Below, piece by piece: positions 2,941 to 58,970 of a stretch of DNA of 64,000 bases (positions within the stretch are counted from its first letter, which is position 1; each line of letters opens with the position of its first letter). The translations under genes were made by a program, and so were the position numbers. The stretch is from Corynebacterium suranareeae (GTDB taxonomy: Bacteria; Actinomycetota; Actinomycetes; Mycobacteriales; Mycobacteriaceae), in contig NZ_AP017369.1 of NCBI RefSeq assembly GCF_002355155.1, forward strand, positions 1,674,001-1,738,000. The letters run 5' to 3'. The notes beneath the pieces are model-generated. The model did not search any database. It was given only the letters and a program-made list of their open reading frames with translations, and was not told where the DNA came from.

Positions 2941-3747
2941 TTAAGCCTCACGCACATCAATCAACGAAGCCACGGTCTGCGCATCGACCTCATACAAGGC
3001 ATCAATAAACGCAACCGCGAAACTTCCTGGTGCTGTGGCTTTCTGCGCAGCGATCTGGCCAGCTGCTCCAATGTGGGCGTGTGCCGCCAACACAGCATCA
3101 TGCTCTGAAATCGATGAACCTACCACAGCACCCAAATAGGCGGCCGTTAAAGCGCCCAACGAACAACCCGTGCCAATCACCAGCTGCAACATGGGATCCC
3201 CAGAGCGCAACCATGTCACCCGGTCACCAGAAACAATAAGGTCCTGCTCCCCAGAAACCGCCACAACACCACCGGTGCGATTGGCCAACTGATGCGCCGC
3301 ATGCAGCGCTGCTTCCACCGAATCGGTCGCGTCTACGCCGCGCCCACCAGCACCCAGACCGGCAAGCGCCACGATTTCTGACGCGTTTCCACGAATTGCG
3401 GCTGGCTGCTTATCGACGATTCCCTCCGCATACTTAGTCCTCTCCGACAATCCACCCACAGCAACGGGATCCAGCACCCACGGTGTCCCAGCTTTTAGTG
3501 CGCCCTCAATGGCATTGGTCATTCCTTGGTACTGCTCAGTAGAGGGAGTACCTGCATTAATGAGCACTCCGTTTGCGATCGCGGCGAATTCTGCTGATTC
3601 AGCTGGAGTATCAACCATCGCAGGGGTAGCTCCCGCAGCAAGCAATACATTCGCGGTGACCTGCATGACCACAGAGTTGGTTAAACACTGAACAAGAGGA
3701 GTGTTTTGTCGAACAAGAGTTAAAGAATCCAAAAATGAGTTAGCCAC
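2941..3747 (-). CDS. thiM: Hydroxyethylthiazole kinase
   Basis: Phosphorylates 4-methyl-5-(2-hydroxyethyl)thiazole, giving the thiazole phosphate used by the ThiE domain encoded next door. The ThiM pattern is clear: [14 protein letters not shown] near the N-terminus, WVLDPVAVG in the middle and the [16 protein letters not shown] nucleotide/anion hole near the C-terminus. The start is uncertain. The ATG at 3759 has its A inside the last conserved base of the TPP aptamer and no room for a ribosome site. The in-frame GTG at 3747 has GAAGGG twelve bases upstream, which is part of the aptamer itself; I prefer 3747 (268 residues). thiED follows after a short gap in the same operon. Confidence 0.93.
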
Positions 3748-3758
3748 TTTAAAGGCCA

Positions 3759-3846
3759 TCCCTTCGCTAGTACGAGCTAGAGCAGGTTCAACGGGTGTTT
3801 TCTCAGCCTCTGGAAATTAAAATCCAGCAACGGCACCCCGTGCCTG
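3759..3846 (-). promoter_or_regulatory. TPP riboswitch (THI element) upstream of thiM
   Basis: Read on the minus strand, the conserved blocks of the thiamin-pyrophosphate aptamer appear in order: CGGGGTGCC (3840-3832), GGCTGAGA (3808-3801), ACACCCG (3797-3792), TGAACCTG (3790-3783), a CTAG/CTAG stem, and the closing GCGAAGGGA (3767-3759). The only purine-rich ribosome site for thiM is the GAAGGG inside this last block. Ligand binding should therefore hide it directly, without a separate expression platform. No terminator hairpin is seen between aptamer and gene. Confidence 0.93.
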
Positions 3847-4157
3847 CTAATCAGCCTAGCAAAGTGGACGTGTGTACTTTTCCACAGGGGCGGAGGGGCC
3901 GGCGGGTAACTCATAAGCGACAATGTGTTTGAATATTCACTACAAACTTGAGATTTCCGATGGATTGTGGTGGATTGTTGCATGTAACCATCCGTTAAAT
4001 GCAAAGTTTTGTTCGAATTAAAGGGGTGATGTCCTGTTTGTGGTGAGTTCTTGATCAGCACACCTTCAGGTTTCACATTTCCTCACGCGCACCGAAATGA
4101 TGCGGCCGATATAAACCGGACTTGGGTTAACTCGGCAAACCAGACCAATGCGCGTTA

Positions 4158-4416
4158 GCGTTTATCGCTTGTTTAAGGCTTCGAGTTTTTCAGATGAACT
4201 ATGGTGTGCATGAAGCCCTGAAAACCCGTTAGAAGCGCTTCTGGGGAGGTATGACTTTTCAGGTGTCGCACCAAAATGTGAGTGCGACCAAATCAGGAGA
4301 CCCAGAATCTGCAAAAACTTAAATGTTGGGTCTCTGTGTTTGGTAATGAGAGCGATACGCCAAACCAGGAGACCCACAAACGTCGAAAACGTGATTTCTG
4401 GGTCTCTGTGTTTGGT
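4158..4416 (+). repeat. Structured intergenic repeat, copy A
   Basis: One of four related elements in this window (see 18136, 21898 and 58713). It opens with TTTATCGCTTGTTTAAGG and carries the perfect dyad AGAAGCGCTTCT at 4231-4242, then GGGGAGGTATGACTTTT. Next comes a local stem GTCGCAC/GTGCGAC, and two hairpins at 4287-4344 and 4360-4416 built from ACCAAA..GGAGACCCA and TGGGTCTC..TTTGGT arms. It fills the gap between thiM and ndh. It closely resembles copy D and has no convincing coding capacity. Confidence 0.8.
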
Positions 4417-4595
4417 CTCACGCCGTCTCATGCCGCCAAGTGCACGAACATCAAAATCCACACCGGGGCATACAGCTATTTCAGCACTAATCTGGCTCAC
4501 GTCGGGATCGGATTTCACGTCTTTCTAACAAACACCGAAATGATGAGCGCACAGTTTCGCGTATGGGCACCTAAAAGATCGCCTTCTACAACAAA

Positions 4596-18118: not shown

Positions 18119-18135
18119 ACTTCGCTAAGCCCCGT

Positions 18136-18307
18136 ATAAAGCCTCGAATTTTTCGAATGAGTATTTGCATGGGTCCGACTCTAAAAACCTCTTAGAAACG
18201 ATTCTGGGGCGGTATGACTTTTGCAGGTTGCGGCCAGGATCGGAGCCTGACCAAACGTAGGTGCCAAGAATTCGGGTTCTTAAGGGTTCTTGGCACGTGT
18301 GTTTGGT
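18136..18307 (+). repeat. Structured intergenic repeat, copy B
   Basis: A shorter member of the family seen at 4158, 21898 and 58713. The head is present (GCCTCGAATTTTTCGAATGA, ACCTCTTAGAAACGATTCTG, GGTATGACTTTT). After 27 variable bases there is one hairpin, 18250-18307. Its outer arms ACCAAAC/GTTTGGT match the other copies, but its inner arms are TGCCAAGAA/TTCTTGGCA instead of GGAGACCCA/TGGGTCTC. Both sides have changed together. Confidence 0.75.
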
Positions 18308-18322
18308 TTACCCATCGCAGTA

Positions 18323-18378
18323 ACAAACAGGCGTGACAAAGATTCACCAAAATGGAAAATCTTGTCACGCCTGTCTGT
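18323..18378 (-). terminator. Intrinsic terminator after ppm1
   Basis: Long stem AACAGGCGTGACAA..GATT / AATC..TTGTCACGCCTGT, located 12 bases beyond the ppm1 stop on the minus strand. The downstream side carries TGTTTGTTAC. Confidence 0.75.
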
Positions 18379-18389
18379 TTTTTGGTTTC

Positions 18390-21459: not shown

Positions 21460-21573
21460 AGATCAAATGATTAATGGATCCCTGTGAGCGAGAAAAATAT
21501 TGTGTGTCGGGTTCCTGACAACTTCAGATTGGCGCTTTGTGAAGTTTTGGTCGCTAGTGCTTATCTGATTAGG

Positions 21574-21687
21574 GCGACTTCTTAACAGGTGACTTCACGT
21601 GGTCGACTTCCCTCGGCGATGGGCTGATTTCGCAGTGATGTCGCCTCTTAAGAAGTTGAGCACGTGAAGTCGCTAATGTGAAGTCGC
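21574..21687. repeat. Long inverted repeat with CACGTGAAGTC arms
   Basis: The left arm (21574-21601) and the right arm (21661-21687) are complementary over their outer eight (GCGACTTC) and inner eleven bases (GACTTCACGTG), with a mismatched centre, and enclose about 59 bases. The GTGAAGT word also occurs singly just outside. It lies between fxsA and the lipase gene, with no reading frame. Confidence 0.65.
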
Positions 21688-21729
21688 GCTATAGTACTTG
21701 TGCAGCTACGCCTTGGGGTTTTCTTTAAG

Positions 21730-21870
21730 TTCGAGATCACACTTTCGAGACCTCGCACTCAATTTCTTAACTGCGAGACCGCTAGGAAAATCACCAAAAA
21801 CCGCGGGAAATTGAGCTTATGAAATTGAGTTCAAGGTATTGAGCTTGAGAACTCGACACCGTGAAATCGA
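21730..21870. other. Intergenic stretch with repeated GAAATTGAG
   Basis: CTCAATTTC at 21758 faces two direct copies of GAAATTGAG at 21807 and 21821, fourteen bases apart. A further TATTGAGCTTGAG follows at about 21837, and CTCGAGATC-like words nearby. No gene is visible. The arrangement allows several alternative hairpins. Confidence 0.45.
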
Positions 21871-21897
21871 ACATAAGAAACCACTGCGGGCATGAGG

Positions 21898-22150
21898 TGT
21901 TTATAGCTTGTTTAAGGGCTCTAAGTTTTCGGATGAGTGTTTGTATCGTCTGCAGACCAAAAAGCCGTTAGGCGCGATTCTGTGAGGTCACTTTTCCTGG
22001 CCTCTTTGAGCTGTTTTTCGTCTCACTTCACCTGGTGACCAAACACGCTTCGGGAAAAGCAATTCTTGGTCAAATACGCCCATATCTAGGACTGTAAACT
22101 TCATCTGCTGACCAAGAATCCCTTGTTCTACCTATGGATTTGGTCAAATA
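21898..22150 (+). repeat. Structured intergenic repeat, copy C (most divergent)
   Basis: Shares the head of the family (TTTATAGCTTGTTTAAGGG, GGATGAGTGTTTGTAT) and a weakened dyad, AGGCGCGATTCT, at 21970-21981. The ATG of the other copies is CAC here, but GGTCAC and GTGACC form the middle stem instead. The tail holds several GACCAA/TTGGTC pairs, including TTCTTGGTC with GACCAAGAA and GATTTGGTC at the end. The lipase stop codon lies about 67 bases further on. Confidence 0.65.
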
Positions 22151-58384: not shown

Positions 58385-58712
58385 GGGTTTTACTCTATCT
58401 TCTTTCCGTAATTATTTCCGCGACAAGCTAATTGTCCGCCTTAACGTTTAATTGAGGTGGCAAATACGACTGCGGATGAATACACGTTTCAACAACCTAT
58501 GAAATTTTAAATGTCACCTCGGACTTCAACCCGAAGCCCTAGGAAGCTATTCCCAACTAGTGCCAAACTCTCCCCCAACTGTTGTTTAGATCGTTTACGG
58601 GATCAGATTTCAATCGGTGTCCAGACAACAAGTACTCCTGCAGGATTTACGCTTCCAAAGAGGAAAATTTTCCGCACTAGAATGAGCCAAATCAGGTTAA
58701 AAGAGCACGAGG
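58385..58712. other. Intergenic region upstream of mshC
   Basis: About 330 bp between the mshC start and repeat copy D. It must contain the mshC promoter. An open frame of 91 codons on the plus strand (58511-58786) crosses into the repeat and has no ribosome site or family resemblance. Nothing else is recognised. Confidence 0.4.
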
Positions 58713-58970
58713 CGCTTACGGCTTGTTTAAGACCTCGAGATTTCCACATGAGTATTTGTATCAACCAGGCTTCGAAAACCTCTTAGAAGCGCTTCTGGGG
58801 AGGTATGACTTTTGGGCTTGGAGGTCAGGAATCTAGCCCGACCAAACCAGGAGACCCAGAATCTTCAAAATCTTAAATGCTGGGTCTCTGAGTTTGGTAT
58901 CGAGCGCGATAAAGCAAACCAGGAGACCCACAAACGTCAAAAACGTAATTTCTGGGTCTCCTGGTTTGGT
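58713..58970 (+). repeat. Structured intergenic repeat, copy D
   Basis: Nearly the same layout as copy A. The head GCTTGTTTAAGACCTCGAG is followed by the dyad AGAAGCGCTTCT at 58785-58796 and GGGGAGGTATGACTTTT. After exactly 27 bases (with a GGGCT/AGCCC stem) come hairpins at 58841-58898 and 58915-58970. The second has a perfect 16-bp stem, CAAACCAGGAGACCCA with its complement. Confidence 0.8.

Follow-up and report, generated by a model that had tools for sequence, protein, structure and literature searches.

Four intergenic copies and their anatomy

We analyzed a stretch of 64,000 nucleotides from the Corynebacterium suranareeae chromosome (the window), in which a structured element had been predicted to occur four times. 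The ordered set of sequence blocks said to define the element was present in all four copies when the sequence was read. A covariance model of the head of the element (R1; 136 positions, built from 36 copies including window copies 1, 2, and 4 and excluding copy 3) matched the window at exactly four places, those reported (E 6.4e-31 to 3e-12). The places were right and some of the extents were not. Copy 1 is larger than was given, and the second palindrome of copy 2 lies beyond the end first assigned to it. The description of hairpins closed by ACCAAA/TTTGGT does not fit copy 3, which belongs to another subfamily with GACCAA...TTGGTC palindromes (Table 1).

Table 1. Positions in the window of the four copies, their parts, and associated features.
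Feature	Position	Strand	Basis
Copy 1 (rank 25), type A core	4158..4416	+	Sequence; R1 match at 4158-4293, E 6.4e-31
Copy 1 parts	head 4158-4293; palindrome 1 4287-4344; palindrome 2 4360-4416	+	Sequence
Copy 1 degenerate 5' IS1634-type end (CCGGACTTGGGTTAAC)	4116..4131	+	3 mismatches to CCCGACTTGGGTCAAT
Copy 1 degenerate 3' IS1634-type end (ATCTGGCTCACGTCGGG)	4490..4506	+	4 mismatches to ATTTGACCCAAGTCGGG, equal to the limit used
Copy 1 possible left target duplication	4071..4102	.	Partner ~4513-4545; 24-nt piece against 4522-4545, 79%
Copy 2, type C	18122..18380	+	Sequence; R1 match at 18122-18256, E 7e-23
Copy 2 parts	head 18122-18256; palindrome 1 18250-18307; palindrome 2 ~18324-18380	+	Sequence
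Upstream repeat modules of copy 3 (GAAGTCGC and GAAATTGAG motifs)	21529..21896	+	Shared with other type B copies
Copy 3 (rank 71), type B	21897..22145	+	Sequence; R1 match at 21897-22044, E 3e-12; type B alignment
Copy 3 parts	head 21897-22044; GACCAA...TTGGTC palindromes 22037-22071 and 22110-22145	+	Sequence
Copy 4, type A without IS ends	58712..58970	+	Sequence; R1 match at 58712-58847, E 3e-28
Copy 4 parts	head 58712-58847; palindrome 1 58841-58898; palindrome 2 58914-58970	+	Sequence

The flanking duplication of copy 1 is only suggestive, its local alignment score of 18 falling within the null range. A TPP riboswitch (RF00059, 58.4 bits) lies just upstream of this copy, at 3741-3850 on the minus strand. 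Copy 2 has CCAAACRYACGTGCCAAG at 18251 and its inverted partner at 18289. Upstream of copy 3, palindromic clusters of the GAAGTCGC/GAAATTGAG motifs (21529-21890) recur in other copies of type B and in some of type C, similar sequence is present in a gap of the carrier genome G197, and the clusters look like a second dispersed repeat family. Copy 4 (rank 43) has a predicted RNA fold of -106.4 kcal/mol (z -6.7); its 5' end identity is 0.71, barely above the shuffled maximum of 0.65, and its 3' end is at background.

The core common to all types is about 270 bp long and consists of a head, a variable stretch, and then one or two palindromes. Within the head, of about 100-140 nt, the conserved blocks are GTTTAAG, GAATGAGTATTTGTAT, and CTTAGAAGCGNTTCTG. 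By palindrome motif, 117 copies from the C. suranareeae genome that were read with their flanks fall into 65 of type A (ACCAAACCAGGAGACCC), 29 of type C (ACCAAACATACGTGCCAAG), and 19 of type B (CTGGCGACCAAG), with four unplaced. With a minimum of 12 paired positions among the outer 16, two palindromes were found in 56 type A copies and one in eight, and in type C two in seven copies and one in 18; the search pattern does not suit type B. On average 16.5 of the 18 outer positions of the best palindrome are paired in type A (n = 64) and 15.8 in type C (n = 28). The shuffled control gave a palindrome candidate in four of 117 stretches (mean 9.75 paired). The sequence of the palindromes differs between subfamilies and genomes while their pairing is kept. 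Paired columns co-vary between types, for example from A-T to C-G, with 97% paired, and a mutual-information scan placed complementary co-variation chiefly in the palindromes. Types also swap palindromes: in rank 73 a head of type C is combined with palindromes of type A, and rank 86 has one of each. In type B, homology between copies reaches about 300 bp upstream of the head. Two type B copies, ranks 78 and 106 (G000:C1:1756192 and 1539322, G000 being the C. suranareeae genome), are nearly identical for some 800-900 bp upstream and share the same end point; this stretch is possibly an IS adjoining or within the element.

Distribution in the genus and gene neighborhoods

To the question of copy number, the prediction that four copies in the window meant many in the genome proved correct. 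The genome consists of one contig of 3,537,507 bases, in which R1 gave at least 145 matches at E<=0.1 and at least 135 at E<=0.001 (150 of 832 first-look candidates scored). A BLAST search with copy 4 gave at least 40 long matches, all 40 of the candidates scored (out of 112) having matched. The 117 copies read with flanks come from the 145. None lies inside a gene as defined by our own simple gene caller, in keeping with the prediction; the element is a dispersed, structured, high-copy intergenic one. The shared orientation noted for the four copies holds locally in the window; genome-wide, 58 copies read on the plus strand and 59 on the minus strand. No replication-strand bias was found among the copies.

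Beyond C. suranareeae, a scan of other Corynebacterium genomes found the element by R1 in four of 241. At E<=0.01, with 150 candidates scored per genome, there were at least 35 matches in G197, at least 38 in G176, nine in G179, and one in G166. Under stricter filters, R1 had no match in 237 of the 242 genomes of the genus. It had none in 150 other relatives either, which we read as a sampling miss because R1 found four carriers among the 241 genomes of the genus. An exact 22-mer of the head was absent from a genome contig set in which records close to the window may be missing, and we therefore do not take this as a sign of species specificity. Plasmids and phages gave no DNA match to the element. 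Foreign copies that were read follow the same plan with other palindromes, such as GAGAGTGCCCACGG in G176. In that genome, locus L253 has two tRNA matches of equal score near a core copy (122-207 and 297-382, 175 bases apart).

Some insertions are common to different species (L243 with rank 59, L247 with rank 48, L266 with rank 80, L270 with rank 75, and L244 and L245 with rank 60). Other shared gaps hold copies in the same orientation with different palindromes (L250 and rank 56, L272 and rank 49, L265 and rank 72, L262 and rank 14); L250 is the G197 equivalent of the copy 2 gap and also holds a head. In a further group the orientations are opposite (L248 and rank 65, L257 and rank 66, L260 and rank 7, L256 and rank 20, and, by one flank only, L268 and rank 54). 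A second match of L256, to rank 98, keeps the orientation. In C. suranareeae, ranks 20 and 98 are two cores in opposite orientation within one gap, L144 (G000:C1:1571771-1572208). The four gaps that keep orientation and differ in palindromes suggest that concerted evolution or conversion of the palindromes may also occur. We prefer independent insertion into favored gaps, since other gaps hold opposite orientations, and this explains both patterns.

For 94 copies both neighboring genes were called, the other 23 being without two neighbor calls. These copies lie in 49 convergent, 40 tandem, and five divergent gaps; the window control for gap types is small, with four of 33 gaps convergent.

Type A copies with IS1634-type ends

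The original prediction held that the element resembles no IS. This is true of the core and fails for type A as a whole element. The outer end CCCGACTTGGGTCAA or its inverse, missed by the earlier reader, is found in 31 of the 65 type A copies. Searching outside the limits set by that reader and allowing up to four mismatches, we found the 3' end ATTTGACCCAAGTCGGG in 26 and the 5' end CCCGACTTGGGTCAAT in 16; 11 copies have both and 34 have neither. Across the genome, the 3' pattern at up to two mismatches occurs at 29 sites, against one for the reversed control, and a head is present at 28 of them, L043 being the exception. Type A copies with both ends in 5'-to-3' order span about 0.4-0.65 kb with no transposase gene inside. 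Types B and C have one such end motif among their 48 copies. Apart from this motif, IS1634-type ends are absent from types B and C, from the 34 type A copies, and from the 30 foreign copies read, and at up to two mismatches the end pattern was not found in carriers G176, G179, and G166.

An 18-nt end search (up to two mismatches) matched 18 of the 242 genomes of the genus. Ends like those of type A border IS1634-family ISs in other Corynebacterium, complete in two genomes and partial in a third. On a Corynebacterium faecale plasmid (NZ_CP047205.1, G044:C2) they flank a 1674-bp element present in two identical copies and annotated as 'IS1634 family transposase', with a 474-aa product that scores 364 bits to NF033559 (cut-off 100). 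The two copies have no long flanking duplication, which counts against a MITE origin of type A. G200 has a 1667-bp element with matching ends, a 369-bit transposase, and a target duplication of 38 bp in which 37 positions are identical, and in G173 one end alone lies beside a 311-bit piece of a transposase. A 321-bp element in G018 has both ends around a different interior, and R1 found no core in that genome, nor in G044 or G046. G018 also has a 43-bp element that is little beyond two IS1634-type ends (L323, G018:C11:48648-48690).

The type A ends score 44 and 41 against the C. faecale IS ends in order and 28 and 30 when crossed, with shuffle maxima of 34, 36, 30, and 31. Past nucleotide 17 the scores (27 and 18) do not exceed those of shuffled sequences (maxima 34 and 25), and the subterminal homology suggested by GTGCCG and CATATTG, which the elements have in common close to their ends, therefore comes from a side-by-side view of four elements.

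Long direct repeats run up to the type A ends in several copies: 77-79 bp (rank 33), 61 bp (rank 15), 40 bp (rank 4), 27 bp (rank 5), and 25 bp (rank 2), with longer and less clear repeats at ranks 30 and 9. A first test had placed eight of 30 copies above the 99% point of the null, one of them (L011) an internal repeat. When the 26 copies with a 3' end were compared with 650 cross-pairings, six exceeded the 99% point and two exceeded every null value; four repeats begin exactly at the 3' end. Target duplications of the IS1634-family kind are thus present at several type A copies, and the 20 of 26 without a significant repeat count against the MITE reading. At rank 17, 866 bp in C. suranareeae face 1 bp between the aligned flanks in G197, and this insert looks like two adjacent elements, one of type B and one of type A.

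The matching ends of IS1634-family ISs and the long duplications that can flank copies argue that type A is an IS1634-family MITE carrying the core. On this model, CCCGACTTGG would be cut by an IS1634-family transposase supplied in trans, the element would insert between widely staggered target nicks, and a long target duplication of variable length would be left. Such a transposase presumably moved type A and was lost from the genome later. In C. suranareeae no IS1634 transposase scores above the cut-off (there are just two weak matches, of 27.8 and 23.4 bits), the G200 transposase has no match at E<=10, and no autonomous partner for type A was found in the same genome. MITEs commonly have lost their autonomous partner. 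Carrier G166 has an IS1634-family transposase relic with stops, 56-62% identical to that of G200 (L327, G166:C1:591604-592684).

Type A has the same terminal inverted repeats as the IS1634 (IS1549) family members of C. faecale, G200, and G173, and differs from them in lacking a transposase gene and in having the core as its interior. According to the part of PMC2266710 that treats the family, the usual duplication is 5-6 bp, unlike the long ones of type A, and IS1549 and IS1634 themselves make duplications of 8-514 bp, long and variable as in type A; for these, the paper adds, nobody had put forward a mechanistic model. A table in PMC3852290 lists MITEs of IS1634-family ISs for Methanosarcina barkeri and M. 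acetivorans, likewise non-autonomous, of the same IS family, and in tens of copies. At about 247-249 bp in that table, they contrast with type A, which has a conserved interior shared with copies that have no ends and for which the genome yielded no partner IS.

Overall, we put a probability of about 0.75 on a mosaic, non-autonomous mobile family in which type A is an IS1634-type MITE around a shared core, moved in trans. The MITE explanation reaches only those type A copies that have ends; types B and C and the foreign copies do not share the same terminal inverted repeats. An identity with the ends of a known transposon, which the original prediction named as grounds for refuting it, was found for type A as a whole element and not for the core. 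The claim of no likeness to an IS is refuted for type A because its outer ends match those of the IS1634 family, and the core is spared because so many type A copies, nearly all of types B and C, and the three carriers have no such ends. The original interpretation is thus partly supported.

Origin of the core and significance

Two readings of the core as a familiar kind of sequence find little room. REP/BIME repeats, which a RAYT tyrosine transposase mobilizes, resemble it in being high-copy intergenic palindromes of mosaic order and lineage-specific sequence, and the dispersed extragenic palindromes by which they are recognized are present here. In the REP/BIME/REPIN literature they likewise appear as dispersed, mosaic, and high-copy; the present element differs from them in its long conserved head, its larger palindromes, and the lack of a Y1 transposase in its carriers. 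A search for Y1_Tnp (PF01797) was negative in all five carrier genomes, and a control search was positive in five of 14 known genomes; the lack of the Y1 (HUH) transposase from all five contradicts mobilization by RAYT and makes this reading extremely improbable. A retro-element encoding its own reverse transcriptase was also rejected, as PF00078 is absent from C. suranareeae, G197, G176, and G166 and present in G179, leaving the three high-copy carriers with none. That the head is a structured RNA family (a riboswitch or small RNA) or a decayed gene is very unlikely too. ORFs of 91-118 aa overlap the window copies, and in many copies the head translates as VYRLFKASSF... in a frame with 28 stops against 69 and 103 in the other frames (38 type A copies) and 30 against 52 and 115 (42 others). 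Despite these fewest stops, the codon-position entropies are equal (1.015, 0.988, 0.983), without codon periodicity, and a present-day coding remnant was rejected on that ground. RNAalifold gave the head six pairs, none with compensatory changes, and since co-variation is mainly in the palindromes a structured RNA head was rejected as well. At the gathering score the sole Rfam match in the window is the TPP riboswitch, elsewhere than the copies; at E<=1 on ten loci, the only matches with a gathering score are tRNAs, all of them outside the cores.

Copies without ends could be old elements that lost them, a core that moves by itself, or a core kept for a function, given their end, identity, and edge data. 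Scoring of 56 type A copies gave 29 in which neither end rose above background; their core identities to a consensus derived from copies with a 3' end are 0.70-0.95. If all copies were once transposons with ends, of IS1634 type or other, and the core is immobile alone, erosion of the ends in old copies would account for the highest core identity being in copies with ends, for the correlation of 0.66 between core and 3' end identity, and for the end motif still held by six of the 29. Type B copies, with long flanking repeats at other ends (51 bp at rank 87, 53 bp at rank 83, weaker at ranks 96 and 89; four of 19 above the 99% null), imply that other vehicles existed. Such decay is possible and somewhat doubtful: background ends lie beside cores of 0.87-0.90 identity (ranks 22, 26, 34, and 32), even allowing that the consensus comes from copies with 3' ends, type C copies often cease to be homologous to one another at the boundaries of the core, carriers G176, G179, and G166 lack the end pattern, and the 30 foreign copies have no flanking repeats. 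The wide flanking-repeat test was also negative for type C and for type A copies without ends, and short duplications at the core edges exceeded the 99% null in none of the 34 such type A copies and in one of 29 type C copies (rank 117). For lone cores, the divergence of G197 is too high to place the edges of empty sites exactly. Tentatively, and as a serious candidate, the core may itself be the mobile element, with no known mover: its head conserved and its palindromes renewed per lineage, it would multiply without IS ends and occasionally board unrelated ones, IS1634-type in A and others in B. A host function, with selection keeping the core as ends erode because its palindromes block transcription in both directions between convergent genes, is unlikely. 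The excess of convergent over divergent gaps, the even orientation in tandem gaps (21 against 19), the pairing kept across types and genomes, and a different stem-loop in the G197 gap matching rank 45 agree with it, as does a T-run after the last palindrome in five of 25 type C copies, above the 3.2% of background 8-mers. The T-run occurs in just two of 64 type A copies, however, and the copies as a group lack the stem-loop followed by a T-run of an intrinsic terminator. Copy 2 comes just after a stem-loop and T-run that follow the upstream gene, the conserved head is left unaccounted for, and the control for convergent gaps is small. Purifying selection on insertions would also yield a convergent excess, which on the mosaic mobile reading would reflect the survival of insertions that spare promoters.

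The core has no Rfam match and no description that we located; the IS1634-family MITE is a known kind, of which type A is a fresh variant. The open-access full text searched, outside which most subscription papers lie, held no description of the element. Two term matches in a C. glutamicum small-RNA paper (PMC4046766) concern matters other than such repeats, and the matching passages of two stem-loop surveys (PMC2267715, PMC1590033) name C. diphtheriae but say nothing of C. glutamicum. Several insertions with differing duplication lengths in one genome bear on the long duplications of IS1549 and IS1634, for which the cited part of PMC2266710 has no model. More than 100 copies of such size are likely to pose recombination and assembly hazards in strain work. 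If G197 is, as we take it to be, the C. glutamicum ATCC 13032 reference, then an intensively studied producer of amino acids carries the family in its chromosome. If the core is mobile by itself, it would combine a conserved interior with changing ends, the opposite of what is usual for a MITE.
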